In this document: piece by piece, positions 2,485-18,518 of the stretch
Layout: every line of letters starts with the position of its first letter
Position numbering within the stretch: the first letter of the stretch is position 1
Source of the DNA: Microcella sp.
Lineage (GTDB): Bacteria; Actinomycetota; Actinomycetes; Actinomycetales; Microbacteriaceae
Direction: 5' to 3'
NCBI GenBank assembly: GCA_020216895.1
Contig: JAIWOM010000001.1
Coordinates: forward strand, 1-19,302
DNA length: 19,302 nt
Position numbers and translations under genes: made by a program
The notes under the pieces: model-generated
The model's database searches: none
Told to the model about the DNA's origin: nothing
What the model saw: only the letters and a program-made list of their open reading frames with translations

Positions 2485-2489
2485 ATGAC

Positions 2490-3108: not shown

Positions 3109-4470
3109 ATGATCGCCATCGATCGCACCCGTCTGGCCGAGCTCACCGAGCGCGAGAGCCAGGCCTTCATCACCGCACGCCCGAAGTCGAAGGCCGCCTA
3201 CGAGCGCGCCGAGCACCTGTTCGGCCGTGTGCCGATGACCTGGATGAACAAGAAGTCGGGCGCCTTCCCGATCTACCTCGACCGTGCGCAGGGCAACCGC
3301 GTGTGGGACATTGACGGGCACGAGTACATCGACTTCGCCCTCGGCGACACCGGCTCGATGGCCGGGCACTCGCACCCCGCCGTCGTCGAGGCCGTGCAGC
3401 GCCGCATCGGCGAGCTCGGCGGCCTCACCACGATGCTGCCGACGGAGGACGCCGAGTGGGTCGGCGCCGAGTTGTCCCGCCGCTTCAAGATGGATCGTTG
3501 GAGCTTCTCACTGACAGCGACGGATGCGAACCGCTGGGCGATCCGCCTGGTGCGCGCGATCACCGGCAAGTCGAAGATCGTCTTCCACTCGTACTGCTAC
3601 CACGGCTCGGTCGACGAGTCGCTCGTCGTGGTCGGGCCCGACGGCGAGAGCATGCCGCGCCCTGGCAACGTCGGCGCCCCGGTTCCGGTGACCGAGACGT
3701 CGCGCGCCGCCGAGTACAACGACCTGCCCGGCCTCGAGCGCGCCCTCGCGCACGGCGACGTCGCCGCGGTGCTCATCGAGCCCGCGCTGACCAACATCGG
3801 CATCGTGCTGCCCGAGCCCGGCTACCTCGAGGGCGTGCGGGAACTCACGCGGAAGTACGACGCGCTGCTCATCATCGACGAGACGCACACCTTCTCGGCG
3901 GGCCCCGGCGGCATGACGACCGCCTACGACATCGAGCCCGACCTAGTGGTCATCGGCAAGGCCATCGGCGGGGGCATCCCGACCGGCGCCTACGGGCTGT
4001 CGGCCGAGTTCGCCGAGCGGGCGCTGGCGCGCACCGACCTCGACCTCGTCGACATGGGCGGCGTCGGCGGCACGCTCGCCGGCAACCCGCTCTCGGTCGC
4101 GGCCATGCGCGCGACGCTCGAGCAGGTGCTCACCGACGAGGCCTTCGCGCACATGATCGACACCGCCACGTACTTCACCGACGGCGTCAACGCGCTGTTC
4201 GACCGCTACGACCTGCCGTGGGCGATCAACCAGCTGGGGGCGCGCGCCGAGTACCGCTTCGCGCGCCCGTACCCGACGAACGGCACCGAGGCGGCGGCCG
4301 CGGCGGATGCGGAGCTCGAGGACTTCCTGCACCTCTACCTCGCCAACCGCGGCATCATGCTCACGCCGTTCCACAACATGGCGCTCATGGCGCCCATGAC
4401 GACGCGGGCCGACGTGGATGCGCACCACACCGTGTTCGAGGCCGCGATCAAGGAGCTCGTCGGGGCCTAG
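3109..4470 (+). CDS. Class III PLP-dependent aminotransferase (glutamate-1-semialdehyde aminomutase-like)
   Basis: A 453-residue fold-type I pyridoxal-phosphate enzyme of the class III aminotransferase family. The substrate is not known. Visible landmarks are the N-terminal substrate-side segment (GNRVWDIDGHEYIDF, about 62-76), the cofactor-binding Asp258 in IIDETHTFSAGPGG, and Lys284 in VVIGKAIGGGIPTGAYG, which would form the Schiff base. The segment SLTATDANRWAIRLVRAITG (about 134-153) replaces the usual 'NSGTEA' loop. This variant occurs in proteins annotated loosely as glutamate-1-semialdehyde aminomutase or aspartate aminotransferase family, and true heme-pathway HemL keeps NSGTEA, so I do not call it hemL. 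The ATG at 3109 has GTGAGG about nine bases upstream. It ends 16 bases from the convergent pstB. Confidence 0.88.
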   Translation: MIAIDRTRLAELTERESQAFITARPKSKAAYERAEHLFGRVPMTWMNKKSGAFPIYLDRAQGNRVWDIDGHEYIDFALGDTGSMAGHSHPAVVEAVQRRIGELGGLTTMLPTEDAEWVGAELSRRFKMDRWSFSLTATDANRWAIRLVRAITGKSKIVFHSYCYHGSVDESLVVVGPDGESMPRPGNVGAPVPVTETSRAAEYNDLPGLERALAHGDVAAVLIEPALTNIGIVLPEPGYLEGVRELTRKYDALLIIDETHTFSAGPGGMTTAYDIEPDLVVIGKAIGGGIPTGAYGLSAEFAERALARTDLDLVDMGGVGGTLAGNPLSVAAMRATLEQVLTDEAFAHMIDTATYFTDGVNALFDRYDLPWAINQLGARAEYRFARPYPTNGTEAAAAADAELEDFLHLYLANRGIMLTPFHNMALMAPMTTRADVDAHHTVFEAAIKELVGA

Positions 4471-4486: not shown

Positions 4487-5266
4487 CTACCCGAACCGAC
4501 CGTTCACGTAGTCGAGAGTGCGCGGGTCTTCGGGCGTGGAGAACATCTGCTCGGTGAACCCGTGCTCGACGATCTGGCCCGGGGTTCCCGCCTCCGCGAG
4601 GAAGAAGGCGCAACGGTCCGAAACCCGCTGAGCCTGCTGCATGTTGTGGGTGACGATGACAATCGTCACCTGCTCCTTGAGCTCGAGGATAGTCTGCTCG
4701 ATTCGACGCGTCGACGTGGGGTCGAGAGCGGAACACGGCTCGTCCATCAGCAGCACGCGAGGCTTCACCGCCAACGATCGTGCGATGCAGAGACGCTGCT
4801 GCTGACCTCCCGAGAGACCGCCGCCGGCTGCCGAGAGACGGTCCTTCACCTCGTTCCACAGGCCCGCCATGGTGAGGGACTCCTCGATGAGGTCGGCGCG
4901 ATCTGACTTGCTGATCTTCTGGCCCGTCAGCGTGAGTCCGGAGACCACATTGTCGGCGATCGACATCGCCGGGAAGGGATTGGGCTTCTGGAAGACCATG
5001 CCGATCGCGCGGCGAGCATCCGTGATGCGCATGCTCGAGTCGTAGATGTCGAGCCCGTCAACGCTGACGGAGCCAGCGAGACTCGCGCCCGGCACGAGCT
5101 CGTGCATGCGGTTCAGCACGCGAAGGAACGTGCTCTTGCCGCATCCGGAGGGTCCAATCAGCGCGGTCACCTCTCCCGCGTGCATCGTCAGATCAACGCG
5201 GTCGAGAACCTTGCGGTCACCGAACCACGCCGACACTCCGCGCGCGTCAAGGGAAGCGAGGCCCAT
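4487..5266 (-). CDS. pstB: Phosphate ABC transporter ATP-binding protein PstB
   Basis: Cytoplasmic ATPase that powers phosphate import through PstC and PstA. At 259 residues it has the family's usual length. Visible motifs: Walker A GPSGCGKST (38-46), Q-loop VFQKPNPFP (91-99, the NPFP being typical of PstB), ABC signature LSGGQQQR (151-158), Walker B VLLMDEP (171-177), D-loop SALD, and the switch histidine in VTHNMQQA (H207). I start at the ATG at 5266 because it gives a typical N terminus. In-frame GTG codons at 5281 and 5314 are alternatives, and no strong ribosome binding site decides between them. It is the last gene of the operon, nearly 8 kb from the permease genes, whereas pstB usually directly follows pstA. 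It converges on the aminotransferase gene. Confidence 0.95.
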   Translation of the reverse strand: MGLASLDARGVSAWFGDRKVLDRVDLTMHAGEVTALIGPSGCGKSTFLRVLNRMHELVPGASLAGSVSVDGLDIYDSSMRITDARRAIGMVFQKPNPFPAMSIADNVVSGLTLTGQKISKSDRADLIEESLTMAGLWNEVKDRLSAAGGGLSGGQQQRLCIARSLAVKPRVLLMDEPCSALDPTSTRRIEQTILELKEQVTIVIVTHNMQQAQRVSDRCAFFLAEAGTPGQIVEHGFTEQMFSTPEDPRTLDYVNGRFG

Positions 5267-5327
5267 TGCCTCGGTGGTCACGGGTTGCTGCCTGTCGTCG
5301 GATGTCGTCAGCACAATCGGGGTCCAA

Positions 5328-6338
5328 TCACGTGAGGTTGGGGAGCAAGGTCGAAAGATCGCGGAACAACAGGAAACTGAGGAACACGGTGGTGGGCACT
5401 CCCACGGCCCAGGCCTGCCACCGCCCCCACGCGCGACGCATGACCGGCATCGCGGCAACGGCGGCCAGAAGAAGCAGTGCCCAGATCGCCACCTCCGAGC
5501 CGGTGGAGAATCGCGACGCCATCGCCAGTTCGTCACGAGGAAGCGCGGAGTAGCCGAAAGCTCGAGCACCGACCTCGGCGGCGTTGCCAGCCAGCACCGC
5601 ATCCACCCGCAGCACGTCTTCCGCGAAGTAGGGAATCCCGGTTGCCGTGACAAGCGTCAACGTGCTGTCCGAGGCGGGGCGGTCGGGAAGCGCTTCTTGG
5701 CCAGTGCGGACGCCTGCGACCGTGAAGACGAAGCGACCCTGCCCGGTCGTGACGACAATGCGATCGCCCTCGTCCAGCTCGGAAAGACGGGAGAAGGGGC
5801 CGCCGAACGCTGCCTGGCGACCAAAGATGACCGAGGCACCGACCTGGCCGGGCATCACCGTGTCGCGACGATGACCCGGACCGGACTGGAGGGCGCGTGC
5901 ATCGGTGCCCTCCACGATGACGGTGCTCAGGTCAATCGCATCGATCTCGAGCAGGGCGACTGGCTGGCCAGGAGTGAGAAGCTCACCAGTGCTCTCAAAC
6001 TGCGACACAGGAGCCGTGGAGTTCGCGAGCTCGAATCGGAGCTCTTCGCGCAACAGCGCCTGATCGCGCAGAAAAGTCACAGGGCTCGCGATCACGAGGT
6101 AGGCCGCGAATCCCAGCAAGATGGAGCCGACGAGCAGGAGCGCGGTCGACCCGAATCGTGCCCGATCAAGCGGGGTCAGAGCCAGAATCGCGCGCGACGC
6201 GGTCGCCGGACGTAGATCGCTCGACTCGCGGGCAACGGCATCGAGCGCACCCGCCACCGCTGATCGCATTCTGGTGCGCGTGGCCGTCACGGACACGCGG
6301 ACGCGATCGCGCCACGATACGGAAGGAGTGGAGGTCAC
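5328..6338 (-). CDS. Sortase-fold membrane protein lacking the catalytic His and Cys
   Basis: A 336-residue protein: one membrane helix (about 63-86), an extracellular sortase-like domain (about 120-252) and two C-terminal helices (about 283-299 and 310-326). The domain carries typical sortase landmarks: VIVEGTDARALQSGPGH, MPGQVGASVIFGRQAAFGGP and STLTLVTATGIPYF. Active sortases have GH(R/D) in the second and TTC or TC in the third. Here Arg174 (codon 5817-5819, CGC) replaces His, and Ala232 (codon 5643-5645, GCA) replaces Cys. Arg244 in DVLRVDAV fits the conserved sortase Arg. Transpeptidase activity is therefore unlikely. I start at the GTG at 6338, preceded by AAGAAAG. A GTG at 6395 is in frame but lies inside a strong hairpin. 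It sits between a secreted binding protein and pstB. Role inferred: scaffold or assembly factor for the exported proteins of the operon. Confidence 0.8.
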   Translation of the reverse strand: MTSTPSVSWRDRVRVSVTATRTRMRSAVAGALDAVARESSDLRPATASRAILALTPLDRARFGSTALLLVGSILLGFAAYLVIASPVTFLRDQALLREELRFELANSTAPVSQFESTGELLTPGQPVALLEIDAIDLSTVIVEGTDARALQSGPGHRRDTVMPGQVGASVIFGRQAAFGGPFSRLSELDEGDRIVVTTGQGRFVFTVAGVRTGQEALPDRPASDSTLTLVTATGIPYFAEDVLRVDAVLAGNAAEVGARAFGYSALPRDELAMASRFSTGSEVAIWALLLLAAVAAMPVMRRAWGRWQAWAVGVPTTVFLSFLLFRDLSTLLPNLT

Positions 6339-6360
6339 CGGGAACTTTCTTGCATCGGGT

Positions 6361-6401
6361 TCGCGGGTGCCATCCCAACGATCTGGGGATGGCACCCGCG
6401 A
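6361..6401 (-). repeat. Intercistronic hairpin, 16-bp stem
   Basis: A perfect inverted repeat. The arm CGCGGGTGCCATCCC at 6362-6376 pairs with GGGATGGCACCCGCG at 6386-6400, extended by one T-A pair at the ends, around a 9-base loop. It lies 14 bases after the stop of the Ig-repeat binding protein gene and just upstream of the ribosome binding site of the next gene. There is no U-run on either strand, so it is not a textbook intrinsic terminator. It may act as a 3'-end mRNA stabiliser, a partial terminator or a processing site that lowers expression of the downstream genes relative to the binding protein. Confidence 0.75.
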
Positions 6402-6415
6402 GGAAAGGGTGATCC

Positions 6416-8524
6416 TTACCGGACGACGAAACGTGCGGTGGTGCGCACCGCATTGAACTTCGTGTCACCCAGGTAGCGGACCGACAGGGTGTGGGTGCCG
6501 CGCGGAATCGACGAGAGCGTGATGGTCACGGCCCCTCGCGAGAGGGTTCCTGAGCCGACCCGCGTGCTGCCGCGGTAGACCTCAACCCGACCGGTGGGGG
6601 TCACACCATTGATAGCGGCAACCGTGACCTTGACTTTGCCTCGGGTACCCGCGCTGACCGTCGCCGCAGATGCCTTGATGGTCGGCGTGGCCTTGGCCAC
6701 CGTAACCGGGCGCTCGACCGAGCTGCTCGGCGCCAAGTTGCTCCCCGTCGGGGGTACGTACCGCACCTGGAACGCGTAGCTGAGCTTGGCTGCCGTGACG
6801 CGGAAGCCGAACCCGTTCTCGCCTTCGTCCAGGGTGTAGGTCTGCAGGCGCGTAGCACCGTCCCAGAGCTCGACGGTGCCGCCCTCCGCGCCCGTGACCC
6901 ATCCAACGACCGTCATCACGCCGCCGATGGTGGCGGTCGACTTGGTCGAGACGAATGACGCGGTCGGGGCCGAAACCGGCACCGACGCCACGGCGGTCTG
7001 CGAACCGACAATGCCGGGCAGGGTCGGGATGAAGACGGCGCGAAGCGAGGCACTCGTGGCATCCGTCGTGACAGTCACCGGCACCTGAACAGTGGCCGTG
7101 GCCGTCGCGACGTGCGGCGCGACCGCGGCCTGCCCGACGACGGTGTCACCGTTCAGGATGCGGACCGTGCCACCCTGACGGTGCACCTTCGAGTCGACGA
7201 CGACCTCAACCGAAGTGGACGCACCGACCTCGATCGCGGTCGGCGGGGTCCACGTGACGGTGCTCGTGTTGTCGGCGGTGGGAGCGTAAGCACGGATGCT
7301 GTCGTCACCACACTCGGAGCCGATCGGAAGGAAGCCGTAGAGCTCGATCGTCGCCGTCTGCTCGCAGAGCAGCGACGTCGAACCGTAGAAGACCTCGTGG
7401 ATGAGCGTGCTGGGGTCATCGAGCAGTCGCGACGGAACGATGTTGAACACGTTGCGAGTGGCGGCGGTGAACGCAGGGTTCGCCTTCACCAGCGGGCCGT
7501 CGCCGACGGTAACGAACGGGGCAGCGGCAACGCCTGCCTCGGTCGCCTTGAGCGGGAGGAGCACGGCCCCGTTGCGACGGTCCGTGACACCGGGGGCGTC
7601 ATTGGTGAACGCAACGTACTGCCCGATCGAGAACGGACCGATGACCGTCTCGTCGAGGCCCATAACCGTGCCGTCGTGCTCCTGCACCGAGTAGGTCGTG
7701 CCGTCGATCACGATCGAGGCGCTCCGGATGTCCGCAGGGATGCTGGTGTTGTTGTCCGCAAGACCCAGCACATCCACGATGAAGTACGAACGCGTGCCCG
7801 AGCCGGACTGAGGGACAACGGGGCGCAGCTGGTAGGCCACGGTTCCCTCCGGCGCATCGACCGGAAGGGTCGCATCCGGACCTACACCGACGTAGGTGTA
7901 CGAGCCGGCGGAGCCGGCGACATACGCGTACTTCACCGCACCCTTGTAGACCGCCGTGAGGTTCGGCTTCGAGGTGGTGTCTTCACCCTTGCCGATGTAC
8001 CACGGCACGACGGCGAGAGGACTGCCGTCCTTGACGGCCATCGTGAGGGCATCCTTGGCGAACGGCACATAGGCGAGCACGCCGTTGGCCGCCGCGGCGG
8101 CGCCGGGACCGCTCGAACTGCGCGCGACATCGATCTTGCCGATGGCATCAGCACCGACAGCGATGCTGCCACCGACCTGACGTGCGACGTTCGCCGTCGC
8201 CGTCTGGCCGATGGCGACGCGAAGGAAGTCGCGCCCCGCGCTGGAGCCGTTGGCACGAGGAGCGACCGTGCCGCCGGCATCGATCTGCACGGTCGACGAG
8301 CCGACCGCGAGGTAGTTGGCCAGCAGGTTCTCGTCCGCTGCCGCGTTGACCGCATTGGCGAGGCCCTGCATGACGTCCTGCGTCGTGTCCGATCCGAAGA
8401 TCCGAAGCTGGCCGTACTGGTCAGCAGCGGGATCAGCCGCCGCCGGAGCCGCAACCGCGGCACCCACGAGGATCGCGCCGATGCTCGTCAGTGCGAGCCC
8501 CCGGGCGAAGAGTCTGTTCTGCAT
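6416..8524 (-). CDS. Secreted substrate-binding-like protein with C-terminal Ig-like repeats
   Basis: A 702-residue exported protein. The signal peptide covers residues 1-30 (cleavage probably after APAAA), with no lipobox Cys. Residues about 37-410 form a periplasmic-binding-protein-like domain with GSDTTQDVM (44-52), RSSSGP (135-140) and QSGSGTRSYF (239-248); the last resembles the Ser/Gly/Thr anion-binding loop of PstS. Cys387 and Cys405 may form a disulfide. The C-terminal third has about three Ig-like beta domains (roughly 423-517, 519-609, 612-702). The last is clearest, with TPTGRVEVYRGSTRVGSG and GTHTLSVRYLGDTKFNAV, as in bacterial Ig group 3 repeats. There is no C-terminal helix, LPXTG or lysine-rich tail, so it is either released or held by partners. 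The ATG at 8524 has a weak GACGAGAA upstream. Hairpins lie on both sides of the gene. Ligand unknown; phosphate is inferred from context. Confidence 0.85.
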   Translation of the reverse strand: MQNRLFARGLALTSIGAILVGAAVAAPAAADPAADQYGQLRIFGSDTTQDVMQGLANAVNAAADENLLANYLAVGSSTVQIDAGGTVAPRANGSSAGRDFLRVAIGQTATANVARQVGGSIAVGADAIGKIDVARSSSGPGAAAAANGVLAYVPFAKDALTMAVKDGSPLAVVPWYIGKGEDTTSKPNLTAVYKGAVKYAYVAGSAGSYTYVGVGPDATLPVDAPEGTVAYQLRPVVPQSGSGTRSYFIVDVLGLADNNTSIPADIRSASIVIDGTTYSVQEHDGTVMGLDETVIGPFSIGQYVAFTNDAPGVTDRRNGAVLLPLKATEAGVAAAPFVTVGDGPLVKANPAFTAATRNVFNIVPSRLLDDPSTLIHEVFYGSTSLLCEQTATIELYGFLPIGSECGDDSIRAYAPTADNTSTVTWTPPTAIEVGASTSVEVVVDSKVHRQGGTVRILNGDTVVGQAAVAPHVATATATVQVPVTVTTDATSASLRAVFIPTLPGIVGSQTAVASVPVSAPTASFVSTKSTATIGGVMTVVGWVTGAEGGTVELWDGATRLQTYTLDEGENGFGFRVTAAKLSYAFQVRYVPPTGSNLAPSSSVERPVTVAKATPTIKASAATVSAGTRGKVKVTVAAINGVTPTGRVEVYRGSTRVGSGTLSRGAVTITLSSIPRGTHTLSVRYLGDTKFNAVRTTARFVVR

Positions 8525-8547
8525 TGTGTTCTCGTCTTTCGATGTAG

Positions 8548-8565
8548 CGCCCCCTCTCAGGGGCG
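8548..8565 (-). repeat. Short intercistronic hairpin
   Basis: CGCCCC at 8548-8553 pairs with GGGGCG at 8560-8565 around a 6-base loop. It lies in the 77-base gap between the 810-residue binding-protein-like gene and the Ig-repeat gene. No U-run follows on the minus strand, so a terminator is not supported. A role in mRNA stability or processing is possible, but a 6-bp GC stem is weak evidence in a GC-rich genome. Confidence 0.4.
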
Positions 8566-8601
8566 TGGAATTGTGAAGAATTCAGGGGAGACGTGAATGG
8601 A

Positions 8602-11034
8602 CTATGCGGCGGGCTGAATGAAGTCCTCCTCGCTCTCGATCAAGCGGCGTGCGCGGCGATTGAGCAGGGCTCCGGCGAGCATGCTCGGCACGCCGACGGC
8701 CAGGACGGCTCCGAAACCGACAGGGCCGATGCCTGCGGGCACCGGCGAGAGAGCGCGGGTGCTGTCAATCTCGGGGAACGAGGGCGGCGCCACCTCGGTA
8801 TCGACGGGAGGCAGTTCATCAACGGGGAACCCGACGTCAGGTTCGTCGACGACGACCTCGATCGGGGCCTCCTCCGTGGGGCATTCCTTGGAGGCAGACC
8901 CCAAGCCCGCGATGACGGCTGCCGCGGCCGTGCGGTCAGCCTCGGCGAGAGGCACGAACCCCGCGGGGAGCTCGCCGGCGGCACTCCCGGGCGACTGCCC
9001 GGTGGTCGTCGCGTAGCTGAGAACCGTGCTGTAGCTGCTCCGGGTCTCTGCGTCGAGATCGCAGACGTTCACAGCGGCATAGACCGGGTAGGCCAAGGGG
9101 TAGACCCCGGCCGTGACAAGGCCCGGGTCAACAGACCGGGTCCCTGTGGTTTCGTCTGTGGGGGAAGCAGCGAGCATCGCCGTAATGGCATCCGCGGTTG
9201 GCGCGATCGGCTGTCCGGCGGCGTTGACCAAGCGCGCGGTCTTGAGCCCGTAGCGTACGGCGCTCGGCGCGTCGACGAGCGCGATCATGAAGCGGGCACC
9301 GGGTCGCTGCGCCCCGGTCGTCACGTACGACGGTGGGAGCCGGGTCGGGTCCCACACGATGCGAGCGTTCGCGTCACCGCGGAGGGCGCGAAGGGCCGCC
9401 TCTGCGTAGTCGTTCATGTACGGGCGCATGTCCAGCGTCCCGAACCCCGGCGGCGGCGCGCCGTCTTGCTGGAGAGTCGACAGGTCGGCCTTGGGAAACG
9501 AATCCGTCGGGGTGGTCGCCAGCTCGAGGGCCAGGTACGCCCGGTTGATCGTCATCCCACTCTCGTCGGGGATTCCGGCGAGGAACCCGCGCGCGGATTG
9601 ATCGGACTGCAACCACTCCCACACCAGGGCGTTGGCATCGCTACCGCCGAGCGTCACGAGCATGCCCGGGGGGAAGGCATTGATACCGAAATCACGGAAG
9701 TCGGGGTTGAGACGCAGGAACTCCGGGTCTTTCACGATCGACACGGGATTGCTCGTGATGCCACCCAGCACCCCACCATCGGGAGTGTCGTTGCGATATG
9801 ACTGCGTCAGCAGCTTGGCGACGAGACGGGCGTTGAGCACCAGATCGTTGACGGGCGTGCCGTTGCGGCTGGCCAAAGGCGACTCTGAGTTCACCGCGTA
9901 ATCGATGTTGTAGGCAACGACGAGAGCACTCTGAGCGGCTGGCGCATACCGGATGACCTGGTCGGCTCGCTCCTCCTCGTTGAGCGGTCGCGTGACGAAA
10001 GCGAGCTTTGAATCGCCTTCTCGCCCACTCACAATGAGCCGGCGCGCCTCTCCATCACCGACCTGCGTGAAGCCGAGAGTCACACCCTTGCCGCACAGCA
10101 CCGGCTGCCAGCGCACAATGGCAGCAGCGATGGTCTCTGCGCCCGCGACCCGCTCCTCGTCCTGCCCAATCGGGCAGGAGACGGCGAGCGACTGGAATGT
10201 GAGCGGAATGGCAATGCGCTGCGCCCAGGCGGTGGCGGAAAGCGGGCTGCCCGTCACACGACCTGCGGCCGTCGCCGTCGCGGCGTCGCGCCCGTCGAGG
10301 TTGACCGCGCCGCGCGGGACGACGACGAGCCAGCATCCGCGGGGGCCGCTCGCGGTTGCCGCCCCACAGCCCAGGTGCGGAGCCTCCAGAGCGGTCTGCA
10401 CCTCGAAAACGATCGAGCCCGAGCCGTCGGCACCCGTGCGCACCGCGGAAATCTCGTTGGAGGTGTTGGCATCGAAGTAGTCCGCCGGTGTGAAGGTCGA
10501 TGCACCCTCGACGGGCTGGAAGGGAACTCGGAAGGCGTTCTGGAAGGGGTTATCCGGCGGCGGCGGAATGCGCACAGCGGCGTTGTAGACCTGCGCCGGG
10601 TCCTCGTTCCTCACCAGATCGCGGCTTCCCGCGCGCAGTCCCAGAAGGGTCGCGATGGACGGGCTGGTTGCACCCCACTGACACTGGTCGGGGCGGGGGC
10701 CGGCGACGTCATCACCCCAGCACTGCATGATCTGCAGGTAATTGGTCGCGAACTCGCCGAGCGATGTGGGCGTGCCGCCTGTCCAGCTAATCCGCACACC
10801 CTGGCTGGTCAGGTCACGGGTCTGGCTGACGGTGACCGCGAGGTTCTCCAGCGCTGCCGCCCCTGGCGTCGTGGCGCCCGGGTGCGCGTCGGCCCATCGG
10901 ACGGTGACCGAGGAGTCGTCGGTCGTGGCCGACGCTGACGGAAGGCTGAGGCCCCACCCGCCGACCAGGCTGGCGACAATGCCCCCAACCATCAGGAAGC
11001 GACCCGTCGAGCGGAGCGCACGCGCGGCGCTCAC
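8602..11034 (-). CDS. Large tail-anchored binding-protein-like exported protein
   Basis: An 810-residue protein. Residues 1-38 look like a signal peptide (hydrophobic core FLMVGGIVASLVGGWGLSL, then SASA). An N-terminal beta module has ISWTGG, NYLQIMQCWGDD and QCQWG (about 80-122). Residues about 270-700 resemble a PstS-type binding protein, with SKLAFVTRPLNEEERADQVI and AQSALVVAYNIDYAVN near 342-384, the position of the 'rPL..E....P.....vvayN' region of that fold. Several cysteines (for example 104/118, 223/234, 287/314) could pair. A Pro/Glu/Asp-rich stalk (about 715-765) leads to a C-terminal helix (about 768-790) and a short tail with RRARR. There is no lipobox or LPXTG. The GTG start at 11034 overlaps the pstS stop by four bases (GTGA), with CGGAGCGG upstream. 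Ligand and role are unknown; phosphate capture or donor relay is inferred. Confidence 0.85.
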   Translation of the reverse strand: MSAARALRSTGRFLMVGGIVASLVGGWGLSLPSASATTDDSSVTVRWADAHPGATTPGAAALENLAVTVSQTRDLTSQGVRISWTGGTPTSLGEFATNYLQIMQCWGDDVAGPRPDQCQWGATSPSIATLLGLRAGSRDLVRNEDPAQVYNAAVRIPPPPDNPFQNAFRVPFQPVEGASTFTPADYFDANTSNEISAVRTGADGSGSIVFEVQTALEAPHLGCGAATASGPRGCWLVVVPRGAVNLDGRDAATATAAGRVTGSPLSATAWAQRIAIPLTFQSLAVSCPIGQDEERVAGAETIAAAIVRWQPVLCGKGVTLGFTQVGDGEARRLIVSGREGDSKLAFVTRPLNEEERADQVIRYAPAAQSALVVAYNIDYAVNSESPLASRNGTPVNDLVLNARLVAKLLTQSYRNDTPDGGVLGGITSNPVSIVKDPEFLRLNPDFRDFGINAFPPGMLVTLGGSDANALVWEWLQSDQSARGFLAGIPDESGMTINRAYLALELATTPTDSFPKADLSTLQQDGAPPPGFGTLDMRPYMNDYAEAALRALRGDANARIVWDPTRLPPSYVTTGAQRPGARFMIALVDAPSAVRYGLKTARLVNAAGQPIAPTADAITAMLAASPTDETTGTRSVDPGLVTAGVYPLAYPVYAAVNVCDLDAETRSSYSTVLSYATTTGQSPGSAAGELPAGFVPLAEADRTAAAAVIAGLGSASKECPTEEAPIEVVVDEPDVGFPVDELPPVDTEVAPPSFPEIDSTRALSPVPAGIGPVGFGAVLAVGVPSMLAGALLNRRARRLIESEEDFIQPAA

Positions 11035-12689
11035 GAACCGCTCCGAGTGGCGCGCACCCAGCGCGCGAGTGCCGGCGGGGCGAGCGCTGTCAACAGCACC
11101 GCGATGAGAGCGAGTGCCATGTAGGTGCTCTCACGGGTCCATCCCGCGTCGACCCGCTCAATCTCGACAGGGATCGCCGCGACCGTCTGACACGCTCCGG
11201 TATCGATCTCGCAGATGGCCGGGCCACCACCGGTCGCTCCCCCGTCGCCTCCGATGCCTCCGCCGTCGACCGGCAAGCCGTCGACACCCGTGTCCGTGCC
11301 CGTTCCGGAGCCGTCGGTCGCGCCGCCATCGCTGGCCCCAGGACCGGGCTGCGTCGGCTGCTCCGCCGCTCCGCCCGTTCCGTCGGAGCATTGCACGGTC
11401 GACCCTCGGCGATCGCACTCCGGCGGCATTGGTGCGTTCTTCGCGAGGGTGTTCGTGCCATCGGAGGAGAAGGTCGGGTTCTTGCAGCTCCGGATGTCGA
11501 TCGACTGGGCCTGGACCCCCGGAATCTTGCGCACCTGCTCGAGGCCCGCTTTGACGAGGTTGATCGGCAGCGGCGAGTAGCCGAGAGTCTCGGCCTGCCG
11601 TTGCCCCTCGCACAGGAAGTAGTACGCGAACGCGCCGAGAGTCGACCCCTTGGCGGTCGTGAAGTTGCCCTCGACGGCAGTCGGCACGATGAGGTACGAG
11701 TACGACGAGAGCGGGTAGGTGCGCGGATCGGCGTTGCGGTAGACGCCCGTGAGGATCTGCGTCAGGTAGGCCTGTGAGGACGGGTCGTTGTTGATCCGCG
11801 CGCCGAGGAGTGACACCGCGACATTCGACGCGGTGGGCTCGACGTAGTAGCCCGCCTTGTTGAGCAGCTTGGCGACCGGGTAACCGGTCTTGATCGCGTA
11901 CGAGTACTCGACGTAGGTGATGGTTCCGACGTTCGCGCGCTGGGCAACGTAGCCCGACACGCCCTGCGATCCGGGCTGCCCCACAAAACCCGTGCCGGAG
12001 ATGACCGGGAAATTCGAGGTCTGACCGCAGGGAGTCGGACGGCCCGCCCGTGCACAGTAAGCATCCCAGATGCGCGGGTGCTCGGAAGCCATCCATGCGG
12101 TGAGCTGCGCGGTAGTCCCGGAGCCGTCAGACCGCACGACGGGAACGATGCGGCGGGCCGGCAGCGTGATCCCGGGGTTGTCGGCCTTGATCGCGGCGTC
12201 GTCCCAGCTGGTGATGTCGCCGGTGAAGATCCGCGCGACCGTCTCTCCTGAGAGGCGCAGATTGGTGATGCGCTGCGACCCGACCGTGAGGTTGTACATC
12301 AGCGAGGTGCCGCCCGCGACGATCGGCATGTAGGCGAACTTCCGACTCGGGGGGGTGTCGACGACACCGGAATCGCTCAGTCCGTAGGGGATCTCCGACG
12401 AGGCGAAGTCGACCGTGCCGGTGCGGAATTGATTGCGGCCGTCCGAGGAACCCGTACTTGCGTAGTTCACCCGCATGCCGAACTGCTGCACGTTGCGACG
12501 CCACTGATCGATGGCGTTGGCGCTCCACGACGACCCGGCCCCGCTGATGGGAACGTACGAGGTTGACGAGCTGGAGGTCGAGGTAGCTCTGGTGTCGTCC
12601 GGGGTCGACGCAACGACCGGCGAGGAGCCGACAGCGAGCACGGCAGCGGCGACCAGCGTCAGAACGAGACTCGCTTTCCAGCGCTTCAT
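11031..12689 (-). CDS. pstS: Phosphate-binding protein PstS, tail-anchored form
   Basis: Extracytoplasmic receptor of the phosphate importer, 552 residues against roughly 350-380 for typical PstS. Signal peptide about 1-28 without a lipobox Cys. Binding-domain motifs: ISGAGSSWSANAIDQW (48-63), VDFASSEIP (93-101) and VVRSDGSGTTAQLTAWM (184-200), the last matching the Arg...Asp-Gly-Ser-Gly-Thr anion loop. At the place of the phosphate-discriminating Asp (Asp56 in E. coli PstS) I read Glu99. After the domain come a Gly/Asp/Thr-rich linker (about 436-490), a Cys pair (493/500), a transmembrane helix (about 522-544) and a basic tail (RWVRATRSGS). It is therefore held by a C-terminal helix instead of a lipid. 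The ATG at 12689 has AAGGAGA about seven bases upstream and overlaps the pstA stop by four bases (ATGA). Confidence 0.93.
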   Translation of the reverse strand: MKRWKASLVLTLVAAAVLAVGSSPVVASTPDDTRATSTSSSSTSYVPISGAGSSWSANAIDQWRRNVQQFGMRVNYASTGSSDGRNQFRTGTVDFASSEIPYGLSDSGVVDTPPSRKFAYMPIVAGGTSLMYNLTVGSQRITNLRLSGETVARIFTGDITSWDDAAIKADNPGITLPARRIVPVVRSDGSGTTAQLTAWMASEHPRIWDAYCARAGRPTPCGQTSNFPVISGTGFVGQPGSQGVSGYVAQRANVGTITYVEYSYAIKTGYPVAKLLNKAGYYVEPTASNVAVSLLGARINNDPSSQAYLTQILTGVYRNADPRTYPLSSYSYLIVPTAVEGNFTTAKGSTLGAFAYYFLCEGQRQAETLGYSPLPINLVKAGLEQVRKIPGVQAQSIDIRSCKNPTFSSDGTNTLAKNAPMPPECDRRGSTVQCSDGTGGAAEQPTQPGPGASDGGATDGSGTGTDTGVDGLPVDGGGIGGDGGATGGGPAICEIDTGACQTVAAIPVEIERVDAGWTRESTYMALALIAVLLTALAPPALARWVRATRSGS

Positions 12690-14146
12690 GACTTGTCTCC
12701 TTCAGGACGCGGAGCGTCGGTAGCGACGGCAGGGGCAGGTGGAGCGTCGGGCTCGGATGCACGGCTGGAGGCATCCACCCATGTGCGTCGCACCCATTCC
12801 CGGAGGGTTCTGCTCAGCCGAACGAGCGCAACGCGGACGATGTCAACCCCGCGGAGGATGAGGCTGTCGCGCCGTGGCGGCTCGGCTCGGCGGAATGTGG
12901 CACCCACTGCTCTTCCTGCCGCGGCGAGACGACGACCCACAGGGGCCAGCAGACGACCAAACGGGGCGAGCACGGCGGCCCACCATTGACGCCGGCGGAT
13001 GCGGGCAAGTCGAGCACGCTCGCGCTTCTCGATCGTGCGACCGCCGAGCCAGCGGGCGACGGCAAACAAAACGAGCACCAGCACCATCAGAACAGCAGCC
13101 GCACCGAACCCGCGGGCGATCATGGTGGGTTCGGGCGACTTCACGAACTGGAAAACCGCGAGCGGCAAGGAGATCATGGGGCCGCTGGTGGGGTTGAGGT
13201 TCAGAGCGGCGGTGAAACCGGACGTGAGAAGAACCGGGGAGGTCTCACCGATGCCGCGCGCGGTCGCGAGGATGATCGCGGTCGTGAGCCCCGACCGAGC
13301 TGTCGGAAGGATGACGTGCCACACCGTCCGCCACTGGCCGGAACCCAGACCGATCGCTCCCTCTTTCAGGGTCGCGGGCACCATGCGGATCACGACGTCC
13401 GACGATCGGATCATGATCGGCAGCATCATCACGCTGATGGCGAAGGCCGCAGCCAGGCCCGACTTCTCGAGCCCGAGAATGAGGATCACGGTGGCATAGA
13501 TGAAGAGGCCGGCGACGATCGAGGGAAGCGCCGACATCGCCTCGACGACGGTGCGGACGAAACTGGCGAAGCGCCCGGGCATCTCGTTCATGTAGAGGGC
13601 AGTGAGGATACCGAGCGGAATCGTGATGGCGAGCGCGATCGTAATCTGGATGAGGGAGCCCACGATGGCGTGGAGGATGCCGCCCTGGCTCAGCGGATCG
13701 AGAGGCCCGGCCAGCGACATGTCCTGTACGAAGAAGTTCGGGAACCGCAGCGCCTCGGCACCCCGAATGATCGTGAACCCGACGATGAACAGCAGCGTGC
13801 CGACGACGACGAGGGCGAAGGTCTGAATGACCGCCGTGGCCACCGCGTCTTTCACGATCATTGCTGGCTCGGTGAATGACAGCAGCAACGCGTAGTAGAC
13901 GAGGAACAGCACGTACGCGACGAGGAGCACGGGCAGGACACCGGTGATCGGAAGCAGCTGACTGGAGAGAAGCCAGGTCGTCGCAAGGGAGGCGGTGGCC
14001 GCGCCGACGAGAGAGAACAACTCTCCGAGTCGCGCGCCACCGAGTTGCCGGCGTACCTCCGCCCGAATCACGGAGGGGACTGGTGCCACCTCGACCGGGG
14101 CCGGCACGGCCGCCGGCGCCGCCGGGCGTTCGAGTGTCGTGGTCAT
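12686..14146 (-). CDS. pstA: Phosphate ABC transporter permease PstA with extended ends
   Basis: Membrane permease subunit that pairs with PstC to form the phosphate channel. At 486 residues it is much longer than the usual 280-370. Residues 1-40 are Pro/Ala-rich and cytoplasmic. An extra pair of helices (about 43-90) precedes the standard permease core (about 102-367), which carries the EAA-type loop LKEGAIGLGSGQWRTVWHVILPT (only 260-279 is the central part, contacting PstB) and GIGETSPVLLTSGF (298-311), typical of PstA. After the last core helix there is a basic cytoplasmic tail of about 115 residues with amphipathic Arg-rich segments and a Pro/Ala end. Its ATG at 14146 shares one base with the pstC stop (TGATG), so translation is coupled. 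Confidence 0.94.
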   Translation of the reverse strand: MTTTLERPAAPAAVPAPVEVAPVPSVIRAEVRRQLGGARLGELFSLVGAATASLATTWLLSSQLLPITGVLPVLLVAYVLFLVYYALLLSFTEPAMIVKDAVATAVIQTFALVVVGTLLFIVGFTIIRGAEALRFPNFFVQDMSLAGPLDPLSQGGILHAIVGSLIQITIALAITIPLGILTALYMNEMPGRFASFVRTVVEAMSALPSIVAGLFIYATVILILGLEKSGLAAAFAISVMMLPIMIRSSDVVIRMVPATLKEGAIGLGSGQWRTVWHVILPTARSGLTTAIILATARGIGETSPVLLTSGFTAALNLNPTSGPMISLPLAVFQFVKSPEPTMIARGFGAAAVLMVLVLVLFAVARWLGGRTIEKRERARLARIRRRQWWAAVLAPFGRLLAPVGRRLAAAGRAVGATFRRAEPPRRDSLILRGVDIVRVALVRLSRTLREWVRRTWVDASSRASEPDAPPAPAVATDAPRPEGDKS

Positions 14147-15150
14147 CAGCTGCTCGCCCCCGATCGCGAGCGGGCGACGATGAACGATGCGGCGAAGTTG
14201 ACGGCGAGAGTCATCAGGAACAGGGAGAGGCCCGCGGCCATGAGAGCGGACATCCCGAACTGTGTCGCCTCGCCGTAGCGAAGAGCAATCAGGGACGAGA
14301 CCGAGATAGCCCCGTTCTCGAGGATGCGCGGCTGGATCTCGAAGACGGGGGAGATGATGATGTACACAGCGATCGTCTCCCCGAGAGCACGCCCGAGCCC
14401 CAGCATGCTTCCGCCGATCATCCCGGCGCGACCGAACGGCAGGATCACCGACGTGATCATCGACCACCGCGTCGCGCCGAGCGCCAGCGCACCCTCACGC
14501 TCGCCGATCGGTGCCTGATCGAAAACCTCGCGCATGATCGAGGTGATGATGGGGGTCACCATCATCGCGACCACGAGACCGGCGATGAAGGTCGAGGACG
14601 TGAAGACGGTCGTCGGGGCGAGGGGGTCGTTCGGGTCAGCACCGCGGACGGCGAAGATCGGAATGAAGCCGAGATTCTGCGAGATCCACTTGGCGACCGG
14701 AACTACTTCACCCTGCAGCCAGAAGAAGCCCCACAGCCCAAAGACGATGCTCGGGATCGCCGCCATGAGGTCGACCAACGAGATCAGGGTCCCCCGAATG
14801 CGCTGCGGAGCGAACTGCGTGATGTAGAGCGCGCAAGCAGAGGCAAGCGGCACCGCGACGATGATCGCGACGAGAGCGATCAGGATCGTGCCGACGATGA
14901 TGGCGACGATGCCGAAACGGCCCGTGTCCGGCTCCCAGGCCTGCTCGGTGAAAAAGCTCCACCCGGCGACGGACAGCGCGTCAGACGCACGAATCGCCAA
15001 GAAGATGCCAACCAGCAGCATGATCGCGAGCACCGAAACGCCGCCTGCGAAGGCGAGACGCCGAAAAATGCGGTCAGGGCGCGCACGATGAACCGTCAGG
15101 GCGATCGGTCGATCGTCCGCCAGTTCGACGTTTCCCGGTGCCGCGGTCAT
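14146..15150 (-). CDS. pstC: Phosphate ABC transporter permease PstC
   Basis: Membrane permease subunit of the phosphate importer, 334 residues, normal for the family. It has a short polar N terminus, six predicted membrane helices, and a long outer loop with GWSFFTEQAWEPDTGRFGI (63-81), a PstC hallmark. LMAAIPSIVFGLWG (128-141) is another family motif. The EAA loop is EREGALALGATRWSMITSVI (217-236), followed by GLGRALGETIAV (251-262). The ATG at 15150 has CGGAG five to nine bases upstream and overlaps the stop of the preceding small gene by four bases (ATGA). It couples in turn to pstA through TGATG. Confidence 0.96.
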   Translation of the reverse strand: MTAAPGNVELADDRPIALTVHRARPDRIFRRLAFAGGVSVLAIMLLVGIFLAIRASDALSVAGWSFFTEQAWEPDTGRFGIVAIIVGTILIALVAIIVAVPLASACALYITQFAPQRIRGTLISLVDLMAAIPSIVFGLWGFFWLQGEVVPVAKWISQNLGFIPIFAVRGADPNDPLAPTTVFTSSTFIAGLVVAMMVTPIITSIMREVFDQAPIGEREGALALGATRWSMITSVILPFGRAGMIGGSMLGLGRALGETIAVYIIISPVFEIQPRILENGAISVSSLIALRYGEATQFGMSALMAAGLSLFLMTLAVNFAASFIVARSRSGASS

Positions 15151-15680
15151 GATGCTCCGAGAGTTGGGGGCAGCGATGAATCCACGGCGGCATCGACATG
15201 AACGGGAACTGACTGAGAACGAGATTGTTCGTTGTGATGACCCGTCTCACCGAGAGCCGCCTTGCCCGTCTCCAGTCGGGCGGACACGAGAGAGCGGAGC
15301 GCCACCTCGATGGCGGCGCGGTTGTCTCGGATCGAGGAGTACCACCGAGCGCCCACGATTGCCGGCCGACCGTCGAGCCGCGCCCACCACCCATAGAGGT
15401 GATCAGACGGCCGTATCGTCGCGGATACGTCGAGCTCAGCGATCGACACCCGAAGATCGTCCAGCGCCCGGAGTGCACCATCGAAGTCAGCCTGAAATGC
15501 GACGGACCGGCAGATCGACCGGCCGTTGGACGTGACGAGCTGCCAGCCGACGACGTTGCCGGAATGAGGAGCACCGAGTACGGAGTGCCCCACAACAGAG
15601 ACGGAGTGCTCGATCCACGACACGTGTTGACGCCCGCCAGCGGGCACGACGACGAACATGATGCGGTCTTCTCGCGACAT
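15147..15680 (-). CDS. First gene of the pst operon; DUF1508/YegP-like small protein
   Basis: A 177-residue soluble protein with no signal peptide or membrane helix. Two segments resemble the short beta-beta-beta-alpha repeat of DUF1508 (YegP) proteins. The first is GWQLVTSNGRSICRSVAFQA (45-64) followed by DFDGALRALDDLRVSI. The second is YGWWARLDGRPAIVGARWYS (96-115) followed by SIRDNRAAIEVALRSLVSA. The similarity is read by eye and is weak in the second copy. Residues after about 140 are low-complexity. I start at the ATG at 15680 because GAAGGG lies about six bases upstream; an ATG at 15659 is the alternative. It overlaps the pstC start by four bases and is the first gene after the PHO box, so it is expected to be made under phosphate starvation. 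Function unknown; a regulator or accessory factor of the Pst system is a guess. Confidence 0.75.
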   Translation of the reverse strand: MSREDRIMFVVVPAGGRQHVSWIEHSVSVVGHSVLGAPHSGNVVGWQLVTSNGRSICRSVAFQADFDGALRALDDLRVSIAELDVSATIRPSDHLYGWWARLDGRPAIVGARWYSSIRDNRAAIEVALRSLVSARLETGKAALGETGHHNEQSRSQSVPVHVDAAVDSSLPPTLGAS

Positions 15681-15776: not shown

Positions 15777-15798
15777 ATCACCTGAACGCATGGTGAAC
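15777..15798 (-). promoter_or_regulatory. PHO box (PhoP-binding direct repeat)
   Basis: On the minus strand the sequence reads GTTCACCATGC (15798-15788) immediately followed by GTTCAGGTGAT (15787-15777). This is two GTTCA repeats spaced 11 bases apart. Streptomyces PhoP operators are 11-base direct repeats with a GTTCACC-like conserved part, so the match is in both motif and spacing. It lies about 97 bases upstream of the first start codon of the pst operon and is oriented with it. I could not assign a convincing -10 hexamer. Confidence 0.8.
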
Positions 15799-15891
15799 AA
15801 GCGCTCAATATCCGAGGAATTATCCGGGTACCGGCGCGACAGCGACGCAGTGAGGCCGCCAGTGCGCGCTCAGTGAGCAGTTCCGGTGGGA

Positions 15892-15914
15892 AACAGGCGG
15901 AGAGTGCGCTCCGC
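15892..15914 (-). terminator. Possible weak terminator after prs
   Basis: On the minus strand GCGGAG, a 6-base loop and CTCCGC form a short stem (15897-15914), followed by CTGTTTCCC. It lies about 30 bases after the prs stop codon and before the PHO box, where a terminator is expected. The U-run is short, so termination may be partial or Rho-assisted. Confidence 0.4.
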
Positions 15915-15944
15915 TACGCAGCACGTCCGAACGGGGCGCTGTCC

Positions 15945-16922
15945 TTAGGCAGCGCCATCAAACATGCTGGTCACCGAGCCGTCGTCGAAGACCTCGTGGA
16001 TCGCCCGCGCGATGAGCGGGGCGATCGGCAGCACGGTGAGGCGGTCCCAGCGCTTGTCCTCCGGCACCGGCAGGGTGTCGGTCACGACGACCTGGTCGAC
16101 CGCCTCGCTCTGCAGGATCTCGAAGGCCGGGTCGCTGAACACGGCGTGGGTGGCGGCGACGACGACGCCGATCGCGCCGTTCTTCTTGAGCGCTTCGGCG
16201 GCTTTCACGATCGTGCGGCCGGTGTCGATCATGTCGTCGACGAGCAGGCAGACGCGGCCCTCGACCTCGCCGACGATCTCGTGCACGGAGACCTGGTTGT
16301 GCACCATCGGATCGCGGCGCTTGTGGATGATGGCGAGCGGCGCACCGAGCTTGTCGCTCCAGATGTCGGCGACGCGCACGCGGCCCATGTCGGGCGACAC
16401 GACGGTGAGGGTCGCGGGGTCGAGCTGGGCGCGGAAGTGCTCGAGCAGCACGGGCATGGCGAACAGGTGGTCGACCGGTCCGTCGAAGAATCCCTGGATC
16501 TGCGCGGCGTGCAGGTCGACGCTCATGATGCGGTCGGCGCCCGCCGCCTTGTACAGGTCGGCGACGAGGCGGGCCGAGATGGGCTCGCGGCCGCGCCCCT
16601 TCTTGTCCTGGCGGGCGTAGGGGTAGAAGGGCGCGACGACGGTGATGCGCTTGGCCGAGGCGCGCTTGAGGGCATCGACCATGATCAGCTGCTCCATGAG
16701 CGCCTCGTTGATCGGCGCCGCGTGCGACTGCAGCACGAAGGCATCGCAGCCGCGCACGCTCTCCTCGTACCGGGCGTAGATCTCGCCGTTGGCGAAGGTG
16801 CGGGTATCGGTGGGAACGATCTCGGTCTCGAGCTCGGCCGCGACCTGCTCCGCGAGGGCGGGATGCGCCCGACCGGTCACGATGACGAGGCGCTTCTGGC
16901 CGGTGATCTTGATGCTGGCCAT
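15945..16922 (-). CDS. prs: Ribose-phosphate pyrophosphokinase (PRPP synthase)
   Basis: Transfers pyrophosphate from ATP to ribose 5-phosphate, giving PRPP for purine, pyrimidine, histidine, tryptophan and NAD synthesis (cytosol). At 325 residues it is a full-length class I enzyme. Motifs: FANGEIYARYEESVRG (43-58), the flexible loop APFYPYARQDKKGRGREPIS (97-116), the metal-binding DLHAAQIQGFF (136-146) and the PRPP loop LLVDDMIDTGRTI (226-238). The ATG at 16922 is preceded by AAGGCGGGA. The gene follows glmU by 47 bases, a widely conserved actinobacterial order, and the two are probably co-transcribed. Confidence 0.97.
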   Translation of the reverse strand: MASIKITGQKRLVIVTGRAHPALAEQVAAELETEIVPTDTRTFANGEIYARYEESVRGCDAFVLQSHAAPINEALMEQLIMVDALKRASAKRITVVAPFYPYARQDKKGRGREPISARLVADLYKAAGADRIMSVDLHAAQIQGFFDGPVDHLFAMPVLLEHFRAQLDPATLTVVSPDMGRVRVADIWSDKLGAPLAIIHKRRDPMVHNQVSVHEIVGEVEGRVCLLVDDMIDTGRTIVKAAEALKKNGAIGVVVAATHAVFSDPAFEILQSEAVDQVVVTDTLPVPEDKRWDRLTVLPIAPLIARAIHEVFDDGSVTSMFDGAA

Positions 16923-16969
16923 GAGGTCCCGCCTTCTGCCGCCGAGGCGACGATCGTGTGCTGGTCGCG

Positions 16970-18439
16970 TTACTGCGGGTCGGGAGCGGCGCCGGCGGCG
17001 CCGCCATCCGGTACCGGGTCGGATGCGGCCGCAGCCGCCTCCGCCGCCGCCGTGCCCGGACGGTTGGCTGCCACCCAGCGTTCGACGTTCCGCTGCGGGG
17101 CGACGTTCACCGCCAGGGCACCGGGGGGCACATCCTTGCGGACGACCGTTCCGGCTCCCGTGTACGCTCCGTCGCCAATCGTAACGGGGGCGACGAAGAC
17201 GTTGTGAGACCCCGTTCGGGTGTGTGCTCCGACTTCGGTGCGGTGCTTGTTGACCCCGTCGTAGTTGGCGGTGATGGTGCCCGCTCCGATGTTGCTGCCC
17301 TCACCGACCGTCGTGTCGCCGATATACGACAGGTGCGGCACCTTCGCGCCCGCCCCGAGGGTCGTGTTCTTCGTCTCGACGAAGGTGCCGACCTTGCCCT
17401 TGTCGCCGATGACGGTGCCGGGGCGCAGGTAGGCGAAGGGCCCGACGGATGCTCCCGCCCCGATCACCGCGAGCGTCGCGTCGGTGCGGCTCACGCGCGC
17501 ACCCGCGCCGACCTCGGTGTCGACGAGCGTCGTGTCGGGGCCGACGACGGCGCCGGTCGCGACCGTGGTGGCGCCCTTCAGCTGCGTGCCGGGCAGCACC
17601 TCGGAGTCGGCCTCGAGGGTGACGGTGCGGTCGATCCAGACGCTGCCCGGGTCGCTGATGGTCACGCCGGCGAGCTGCCATCCGCGGACGATCATCGCGT
17701 TGAGACGCAGCGCCGCATCGGCGAGCTGCACGCGATCGTTGACCCCGGCGACGATCCAGCTCTGGCCGGCGGGCAGGGCCGCGACCGCGTGGCCGTCGCC
17801 GCGCAGCAGGCCGATGACGTCGGTGAGGTACTTCTCCTGCGCCGCGTTGTCGGTGGAGACGAGGGCGAGCTTCTGCCGCAGTGGGGCGAGGCTGAAGACG
17901 TAGGTGCCCGAGTTGACCTCGGTGAGGGCGCGCTCGTCGTCGGAGGCGTCCTTCTGCTCGACGATGCGGTCGAGACCGCCGTCGCTGCCGCGCACGATGC
18001 GGCCGTACCCGGTCGCGTCGTCGAGCTCAGCGCTGAGCACCGTCGCGGCCGCAGTGCGAGCGCGGTGCTCGGCGAGCAGGCCGGCGAGAGTGTCAGCGTC
18101 GAGCAGGGGCACGTCACCGGAGACCACGAGCACGTCTCCGTCGAAGTCGGCGGGCAGCGCGGCGAGCCCCGCCTCGACGGCCCGACCCGTGCCGGGGATC
18201 TCGTCCTGGTCGGCGATGATCGCGTGAGCATCCAGTTCGGCGATCGCGGCAGCGACCACGTCGCGCTCGTGCCGCACGACGGCCACGACGTGCGCGGGGT
18301 CGAGGGCTCGCGCCGTGGCGAGCACGTGCCCGATGAGCGGAACGCCCGCGAGCCGGTGCAGCACCTTCGGCGTCTGCGACTTCATGCGGGTGCCCTGCCC
18401 GGCGGCGAGCACGACGACGGCGAGGCGCGAGTCGGTCAT
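16970..18439 (-). CDS. glmU: Bifunctional UDP-N-acetylglucosamine pyrophosphorylase / glucosamine-1-phosphate N-acetyltransferase
   Basis: Performs the last two steps to UDP-GlcNAc, a precursor of peptidoglycan: acetylation of glucosamine 1-phosphate and uridylylation of the product (cytosol). The protein is 489 residues. The N-terminal nucleotidyltransferase domain has LAAGQGTRMKSQTPK (11-25), GTGRAVEAGL (83-92) and GDVPLLD (108-114). The C-terminal left-handed beta-helix has hexapeptide repeats and the acetyltransferase motifs FVETKN, HLSYIGD, GAGTITANYDG and SHNVFVAPV. The C terminus is an Ala/Pro-rich tail, as often seen in actinobacteria. The frame is open upstream, but the ATG at 18439 has GGGGG close by and begins the conserved domain. 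The stop lies 47 bases before prs. Confidence 0.97.
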   Translation of the reverse strand: MTDSRLAVVVLAAGQGTRMKSQTPKVLHRLAGVPLIGHVLATARALDPAHVVAVVRHERDVVAAAIAELDAHAIIADQDEIPGTGRAVEAGLAALPADFDGDVLVVSGDVPLLDADTLAGLLAEHRARTAAATVLSAELDDATGYGRIVRGSDGGLDRIVEQKDASDDERALTEVNSGTYVFSLAPLRQKLALVSTDNAAQEKYLTDVIGLLRGDGHAVAALPAGQSWIVAGVNDRVQLADAALRLNAMIVRGWQLAGVTISDPGSVWIDRTVTLEADSEVLPGTQLKGATTVATGAVVGPDTTLVDTEVGAGARVSRTDATLAVIGAGASVGPFAYLRPGTVIGDKGKVGTFVETKNTTLGAGAKVPHLSYIGDTTVGEGSNIGAGTITANYDGVNKHRTEVGAHTRTGSHNVFVAPVTIGDGAYTGAGTVVRKDVPPGALAVNVAPQRNVERWVAANRPGTAAAEAAAAASDPVPDGGAAGAAPDPQ

Positions 18440-18518
18440 GCCCCCATTGTGGCAGGGGCGGATGCTCGCCGCGGGTCGCCCGTCCGCCGGGGTTCGCCGC
18501 CACACGCCGTCGGGCGCC

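Follow-up and report, generated by a model that had tools for sequence, protein, structure and literature searches.

An expanded pst operon in Microcella sp.

The stretch of DNA studied here, referred to as the window, is 19,302 nucleotides long and comes from the Microcella sp. contig JAIWOM010000001.1. Positions 4487 to 15680 of its minus strand carry an expanded pst operon, in the order DUF1508-like gene, pstC, pstA, pstS, a gene for an 810-residue protein (P810), a gene for a 702-residue protein, a sortase-fold gene and pstB. A first-pass annotation, made by a model from the sequence, had read the same order, which we confirmed. Overall, the operon belongs to a conserved system, and it probably encodes a second, paralogous Pst-type importer beside the ordinary one. 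With moderate confidence, we interpret this system as a PhoP-controlled phosphate-type importer of actinobacteria in which the receptors are tethered to the surface and are not lipoproteins. The genome of the window is an incomplete assembly (71% complete) and its nearest relatives in a PstC tree are Microbacteriaceae. Misassembly of the locus is unlikely, since the identical gene order recurs across many genomes.

Conservation of the gene set

The sortase-fold family was aligned, and species genomes were scanned with this alignment. This gave 460 loci with a relative, of which the best 80 were kept; all 80 are actinobacteria according to their records, except for one described as 'uncultured bacterium' (L040). 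With the window included, the scoring covered 81 loci; a given gene was counted only if the contig extended far enough to contain it. The pstB gene was present in 74 of 75 loci, the 702-type gene in 70 of 71, the P810 gene in all 65 and pstS in 62 of 63. Lower counts were obtained for pstA (52/57) and pstC (38/50), mostly because the 10-kb flank ends near both genes, only 9.5-9.7 kb having been required.

The reverse search was started from P810. Among 344 genomes of the class, 66 matched at an E-value of 0.001, 49 of them with at least 52 bits and the other 17 weakly. The context of P810 was searched in 48 genomes (the 49 minus that of the window), leaving out second pieces of one gene. In this independent, class-wide sample, a sortase-fold gene of the type found in the window (below, pseudosortase) was found on the contig of P810, at most 10 kb away, at 48 of 55 P810 places, and 48 of 52 pseudosortases were near a P810. 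In a narrower sample at the order level, P810 was found in 28 of 297 genomes. The first-pass annotation had held that its idea of one system would fail if the extra genes rarely occurred beside pst genes. Where the flanks are long enough, nearly all loci have the extra genes next to pstC, pstA and pstB, and the search from P810 found the pseudosortase nearby at most places, so that this test did not refute the idea. A chance neighbourhood is thus rejected, both by the gene set kept beside pst and by the class-wide co-occurrence of P810 and pseudosortase.

Some variants of the arrangement were observed. In five distant ones (L129, L130, L131, L135, L145), pstC is immediately preceded by pstB, and P810 immediately followed by the pseudosortase; three of them, L129-L131, have the 702-type gene after the pseudosortase. 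In a second copy in Actinocrispum (L118), P810 is directly followed by the pseudosortase, while pstB lies on the opposite strand, with a binding protein after it. The Marmoricola locus L049 has two pstB-like genes (3-791 and 11135-12019), one preceding the DUF1508-like gene and the other following the pseudosortase.

A probable second, paralogous Pst-type importer

The importer core is formed by the permeases PstC (14146-15150, minus strand as for all genes of the operon; TIGR02138, 250.9 bits for a cut-off of 196.45) and PstA (12686-14146; TIGR00974, 213.1 bits for a cut-off of 193.45) and by the ATPase PstB (4487-5266). PstA has a long C-terminal extension, and its ATG start was assigned by inspection, as was the start of pstB, whose reading frame is open further upstream. 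PstB scores 333.7 bits with TIGR00972, below the curated NCBIfam cut-off of 343.2 bits; some cluster PstBs of relatives exceed this cut-off (345.1 bits in G305, for example). We take R237 and E241 of PstC and R170 and R220 of PstA to be residues important for phosphate transport. These residues are kept in the window proteins, as judged from alignments to E. coli PstC (9k3s_B) and PstA (9k3x_A).

The number of PstB copies was surveyed in 24 genomes chosen among the 80 loci, with a PstB tier at 329 bits or more and the next tier at 243 bits or less. The 55 PstB-tier matches were distributed as one to four per genome, with at least two in 23 of the 24. The exception was Asanoa (G313), whose sole PstB-tier gene lies inside the expanded operon. 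Of fifteen stretches around further PstB copies and two canonical ones, five turned out to be already known loci and seven were additional expanded operons; L112 and L122 are compact pst operons, and L123 showed only pstB. Among the 24 genomes, 22 yielded one region each with a compact S-C-A-B operon. Each region contained pstC, pstA and pstB; pstS was seen in 21, the exception being the truncated L179, and none of the 22 showed a gene for P810, a 702-type protein or a pseudosortase. A compact pst operon with a lipoprotein PstS was likewise found in the genome of the window, on a different contig.

In the PstC tree, one branch splits 54 expanded from 22 canonical rows with a support of 100/98, although the program warns of long branches, including two canonical rows meeting the expanded group. 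An ordinary duplicate of pst is rejected by this tree, by the topology of PstS and by the gene order. As compared to PstSCAB of E. coli (9k3s/9k3x) and Streptomyces (SCO4139-4142), the expanded operon has homologues of PstC, PstA, PstB and PstS, the kept transport residues and PHO-box-like sites in common. It differs by its order C-A-S-...-B instead of S-C-A-B, by a PstS whose anchor is a C-terminal helix and not a lipid, by two added PstS-fold proteins and a pseudosortase, and by its own PstC lineage.

Three proteins with a predicted PstS fold

The pstS gene (11031-12689; TIGR00975, 209 bits for a cut-off of 205) encodes 552 residues with a signal peptide and, from hydropathy, a C-terminal membrane helix at residues 524-542. 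No lipobox is present. The same topology was found throughout: a lipobox is carried by none of the 81 expanded PstS proteins but by 21 of 21 canonical ones, and a C-terminal membrane helix by 81/81 as compared to 0/21. To describe the ligand pockets, we used positions T10, F11, S38, D56, R135, D137, S139 and G140 of E. coli PstS, presumably the phosphate-binding residues, and mapped them by alignment. In the 81 expanded PstS proteins, S38 is kept in 78, R135 and D137 in 76 each, and S139 and G140 in all. The C-terminal stalk of the expanded PstS carries a D-x-D-T-G-like motif in 46 of the 81 proteins, placed within a pair of cysteines in 23; this motif may bind a metal or serve in docking.

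The first-pass annotation had also called the 810- and 702-residue proteins binding-protein-like, and AlphaFold2 models predict a PstS fold for both. The 702-residue protein (6416-8524), which is secreted, is modelled with a predicted local distance difference test (pLDDT) score of 90.9 as a phosphate-binding-protein fold (residues 38-402) followed by three immunoglobulin (Ig)-like domains (419-702). Its pocket was mapped through a profile match over 149 columns (probability 85%). On this mapping, Asp and Thr occupy the T10 and F11 sites, Ser the S38 and D56 sites, and Ser and Gly the S139 and G140 sites, each in 42 of 42 proteins of the 702 type. An invariant Arg stands two residues before the D56 site.

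P810 (8602-11034) is modelled, with a pLDDT of 89.9, as a Cys-rich N-terminal domain, a PstS fold (residues ~290-719) and a C-terminal membrane helix. Its PstS fold is degenerate. With a profile match probability of 99% for the mapping, 87 P810 proteins have Glu or Asp at T10 in 77 cases, Asp or Glu at S38 in 82 and Asp at G140 in 74, while R135 is kept in one. The window protein has E300, D327 and D466 in its pocket. Therefore, an acidic pocket has replaced the anion pocket in P810. The N-terminal domain (residues ~43-285) contains four invariant cysteines; it gave no match in the PDB up to an E-value of 5 and only chance-level matches in Pfam, each in 1 of 18 members. P810 differs from M. 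tuberculosis PstS3 and PstS1 by this N-terminal domain, the C-terminal helix and the acidic pocket. Where annotated relatives of P810 are named (best 120 of 1372), they are mostly called 'hypothetical protein'.

The sortase-fold protein is a pseudosortase

The first-pass annotation had noticed a sortase-like gene between the 702-type gene and pstB. It lies at 5328-6395, though its start may be the GTG at 6338, and hydropathy indicates a membrane protein. The sortase fold stands: the domain scores 59.7 bits with Pfam Sortase (cut-off 26.6), and a profile search of the PDB matches 22 solved sortase sequences. The best NCBIfam model is the class E model NF033747, with 72.3 bits, below its cut-off of 160. 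Catalysis does not stand. The catalytic His is replaced by Arg193 and the catalytic Cys by Ala; the catalytic Arg is kept. In the profile alignment to the solved sortase 4d70, the GHR of the latter is opposite GRQ and its final TC opposite TA.

This loss extends to the family. Among the window protein and its best 120 of 817 homologues, Arg stands in the His column in 121/121, and the Cys column is occupied by Ala, Gly or Thr in 121/121. Likewise, catalytic His and Cys are both missing from all 106 pst-linked sortase folds fetched, that is, from 101/101 distinct ones after removal of five repeat fetches (L114, L117, L119, L120, L124); three have Lys in place of His and the rest Arg. The catalytic Arg column is unreliable in this wide alignment, with Arg in 70/106. 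An ordinary sortase is rejected by these columns. To judge from its residues, the sortase-fold gene is a pseudosortase, predicted to be catalytically dead.

For comparison, 27 other sortase-fold sequences were considered. One of them, in Jiangella (L072:3942-4916), is a pseudosortase (Arg/Ala) in a locus where no pst gene was seen: its upstream neighbours are 702-type, Ig and WxL-interacting genes, and no pstB was seen downstream in 14.9 kb. In the remaining 26 comparison sortases, His was found in 24 and Cys in 18, and 7 had no residue aligned at the Cys column. The homologue L146 has Tyr and Thr at the His and Cys columns. For the 20 comparison sortases L146-L165 the flanks cover only ~0.6 kb, so that a pst context is not visible; around L137, L139-L142 and L144, no pstC or pstA was found in flanks of 5-18 kb.

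The pseudosortases have 28 invariant columns among 32 diverse family members. One or two C-terminal hydrophobic segments occur in 101 of 102 pseudosortases and also in 14 of 26 comparison sortases, and are no discriminator. A C-terminal PN motif does discriminate (92/102 as compared to 2/26). Thus, the family resembles class E sortases (SrtE) in its sortase domain, its best NCBIfam model and its PDB profile matches, and differs from them by the missing catalytic His and Cys, the extra C-terminal hydrophobic segments and the PN motif. The genome of the window contains one other sortase, apparently intact, with GHR and SCNP motifs recognised by eye. The relatives of the pseudosortase are annotated 'sortase' or 'class E sortase' (best 120 of 817). 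Such genes should not be counted as anchoring enzymes.

PHO-box-like sites and accessory wall proteins

A PHO-box-like direct repeat of the GTTCACC type with an 11-base period is found at 15781-15798 on the minus strand, 118 bp upstream of the first gene. In order to score such sites, a matrix was trained on 20 canonical pstS PHO boxes and the 360 bases before the first gene were scanned in 39 expanded operons. The window site reached 15.1 bits; out of 100 random segments taken from this locus, one scored as high. The expanded operons had a median of 8.2 bits as compared to -1.8 bits for random segments of the same loci; 23/39 were above the 95th and 15/39 above the 99th percentile of the controls. 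The corresponding P value of 1e-11 is optimistic, since the loci are related and the random segments include coding DNA.

In other lineages, further genes stand in or beside the operon and encode WxL-interacting, Ig/WxL and LPxTG/LAxTG-like proteins. Pfam WxLIP_PGBD was found in 30 of 32 scanned WxL-interacting proteins, many near the cut-off. In 32 scanned Ig/WxL proteins, Big_3_5 was found in 24 and WxL in 20. Of 57 proteins from two LAxTG-type families, 29 have a sorting-signal-like C-terminus, as do 6 of 44 WxL-interacting proteins.

Proposed function and alternatives

The proposal of a second phosphate-type importer is based on the conservation of the genes, the separate PstC lineage, the lost sortase residues and the membrane-anchored PstS, together with the predicted folds, the kept importer residues and the enrichment of PHO-box-like sites. 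From these we infer phosphate as the substrate, PhoP control, a relay and a docking role. Phosphate starvation would switch the operon on via PhoP. The secreted 702-type protein, an anion-pocket domain on Ig stalks, would capture, within the cell wall, an oxyanion that is most likely phosphate. In other lineages, this would be the task of a free binding protein acting together with distinct Ig/WxL, WxL-interacting and LPxTG/LAxTG-anchored wall proteins. The membrane-anchored PstS would accept the oxyanion and pass it to PstCA, driven by PstB, and P810 and the pseudosortase would form a non-catalytic docking module at the membrane, keeping the wall-side proteins above the importer. The first-pass annotation had already suggested that the extra proteins capture or relay phosphate. 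This suggestion is partly supported: the PHO-box-like sites and the kept residues of the importer core and of the PstS pocket fit a phosphate-type substrate, but such a role is doubtful for P810.

Several observations weigh against this proposal. The pocket of the expanded PstS has Trp instead of F11 in 80 of 81 proteins and Glu instead of D56 in 68 of 81, and these changes may have shifted its specificity. The 702-type protein has no equivalent of R135, with Pro in 37 of 42, and phosphate binding in the acidic pocket of P810 is unlikely from its residues. On the side of regulation, the PHO-box score does not exceed the 95th percentile in 16 of the 39 operons, at least eight operons being clearly without such a site, and with a plain consensus scan (1 kb, shuffles) only 12 of 36 expanded operons reached 12/14 matches, when 21/21 canonical pstS upstream regions, used as a positive control, had at least 12/14. 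Finally, no WxL, WxL-interacting or LPxTG gene was found in the operon of the window.

The same surface-tethered importer could have a ligand other than free phosphate: a phosphate ester, a breakdown product of teichoic acid or polyphosphate, or another oxyanion. We consider this somewhat unlikely. The systematic exchanges of F11 and D56 and the different 702-type pocket speak for it, as do the parallel presence of a canonical pst and the finding of one to four PstB-tier genes per genome, most extra copies being further expanded operons. However, the backbone-anion residues S38, S139, G140 and R135 are mostly kept, PHO-box-like sites are present and the nearest folds are phosphate-binding proteins.

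A wall-spanning importer built on 'dead' parts can also be imagined, in which the pseudosortase, as a non-catalytic receptor, would clamp wall-anchored capture proteins onto the Pst core and the acidic pocket of P810 would bind the counter-ion (Ca2+ or Mg2+, for example). At the cell surface, metal-phosphate would then be stripped from minerals or the cell wall, and the 702-type protein and PstS would receive the anion. This version is unlikely. Also unlikely is a system that acts mainly in sensing at the surface or as an assembly machine, and whose ATP-binding cassette (ABC) core would signal or drive an envelope complex rather than take up nutrients. Such a role would account for two degenerate members, the pseudosortase and P810 with its acidic pocket, and for the wall-anchoring proteins in the operon of many lineages, but the presumed transport residues of PstC and PstA are kept and so, largely, is the PstS pocket. 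It is very unlikely that the pseudosortase regulates or chaperones anchoring by true sortases, binding LPxTG/LAxTG sorting signals and passing them to an intact class E sortase with an indirect link to uptake; the sorting-signal-like C-termini described above and the apparently intact sortase elsewhere in the genome of the window agree with such a role, but the operons of the window and of its Microbacteriaceae-type relatives have the pseudosortase and no such protein was found in them.

If the preferred interpretation of a second phosphate-type importer is true, actinobacteria own an importer with surface-tethered receptors that apparently went undescribed in specialist work on Pst, hidden by the annotation of P810 as 'hypothetical protein' and of the pseudosortase as 'sortase' or 'class E sortase'. 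It would also mean that a sortase fold was retained without its chemistry in one operon context, apparently for hundreds of millions of years. The first-pass annotation knew of no described system of this composition, and searches of the open-licence PubMed Central (PMC) literature found no description. In the extracts seen of a review of phosphate transport in Streptomyces and relatives (PMC7866108), the terms 'sortase', 'paralog' and 'second pst' do not occur. SCO1906, considered as a possible Streptomyces counterpart, was dropped, the extract of PMC2267785 giving it only as a probable twin-arginine translocation (Tat)-dependent secreted protein. The csc clusters of Lactobacillus encode, according to the extract of PMC1534035, a surface complex of WxL, DUF916/WxL-interacting and LPXTG proteins. 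As far as this extract goes, the operons of many relatives are similar in having WxL, WxL-interacting and LPxTG/LAxTG-like proteins; they differ in that these proteins, which are not found in the window operon, are joined here to a Pst-type importer and a pseudosortase.

First gene and flanking genes

The first gene of the operon (15147-15680) encodes a cytosolic protein of 177 residues. The protein itself has no Pfam match and was called DUF1508-like through its profile relatives, one of which, upstream of pstC in L109, matches DUF1508 at 31.5 bits. The gene is optional, being present in 3 of 18 loci with at least 9.9 kb upstream. From inspection of the translations by eye, the flank at 646-4470 encodes 6-phosphogluconate dehydrogenase-like and class III aminotransferase-like proteins, and that at 15873-19302 phosphoribosyl pyrophosphate synthase-like, GlmU-like and L-serine dehydratase-like proteins.

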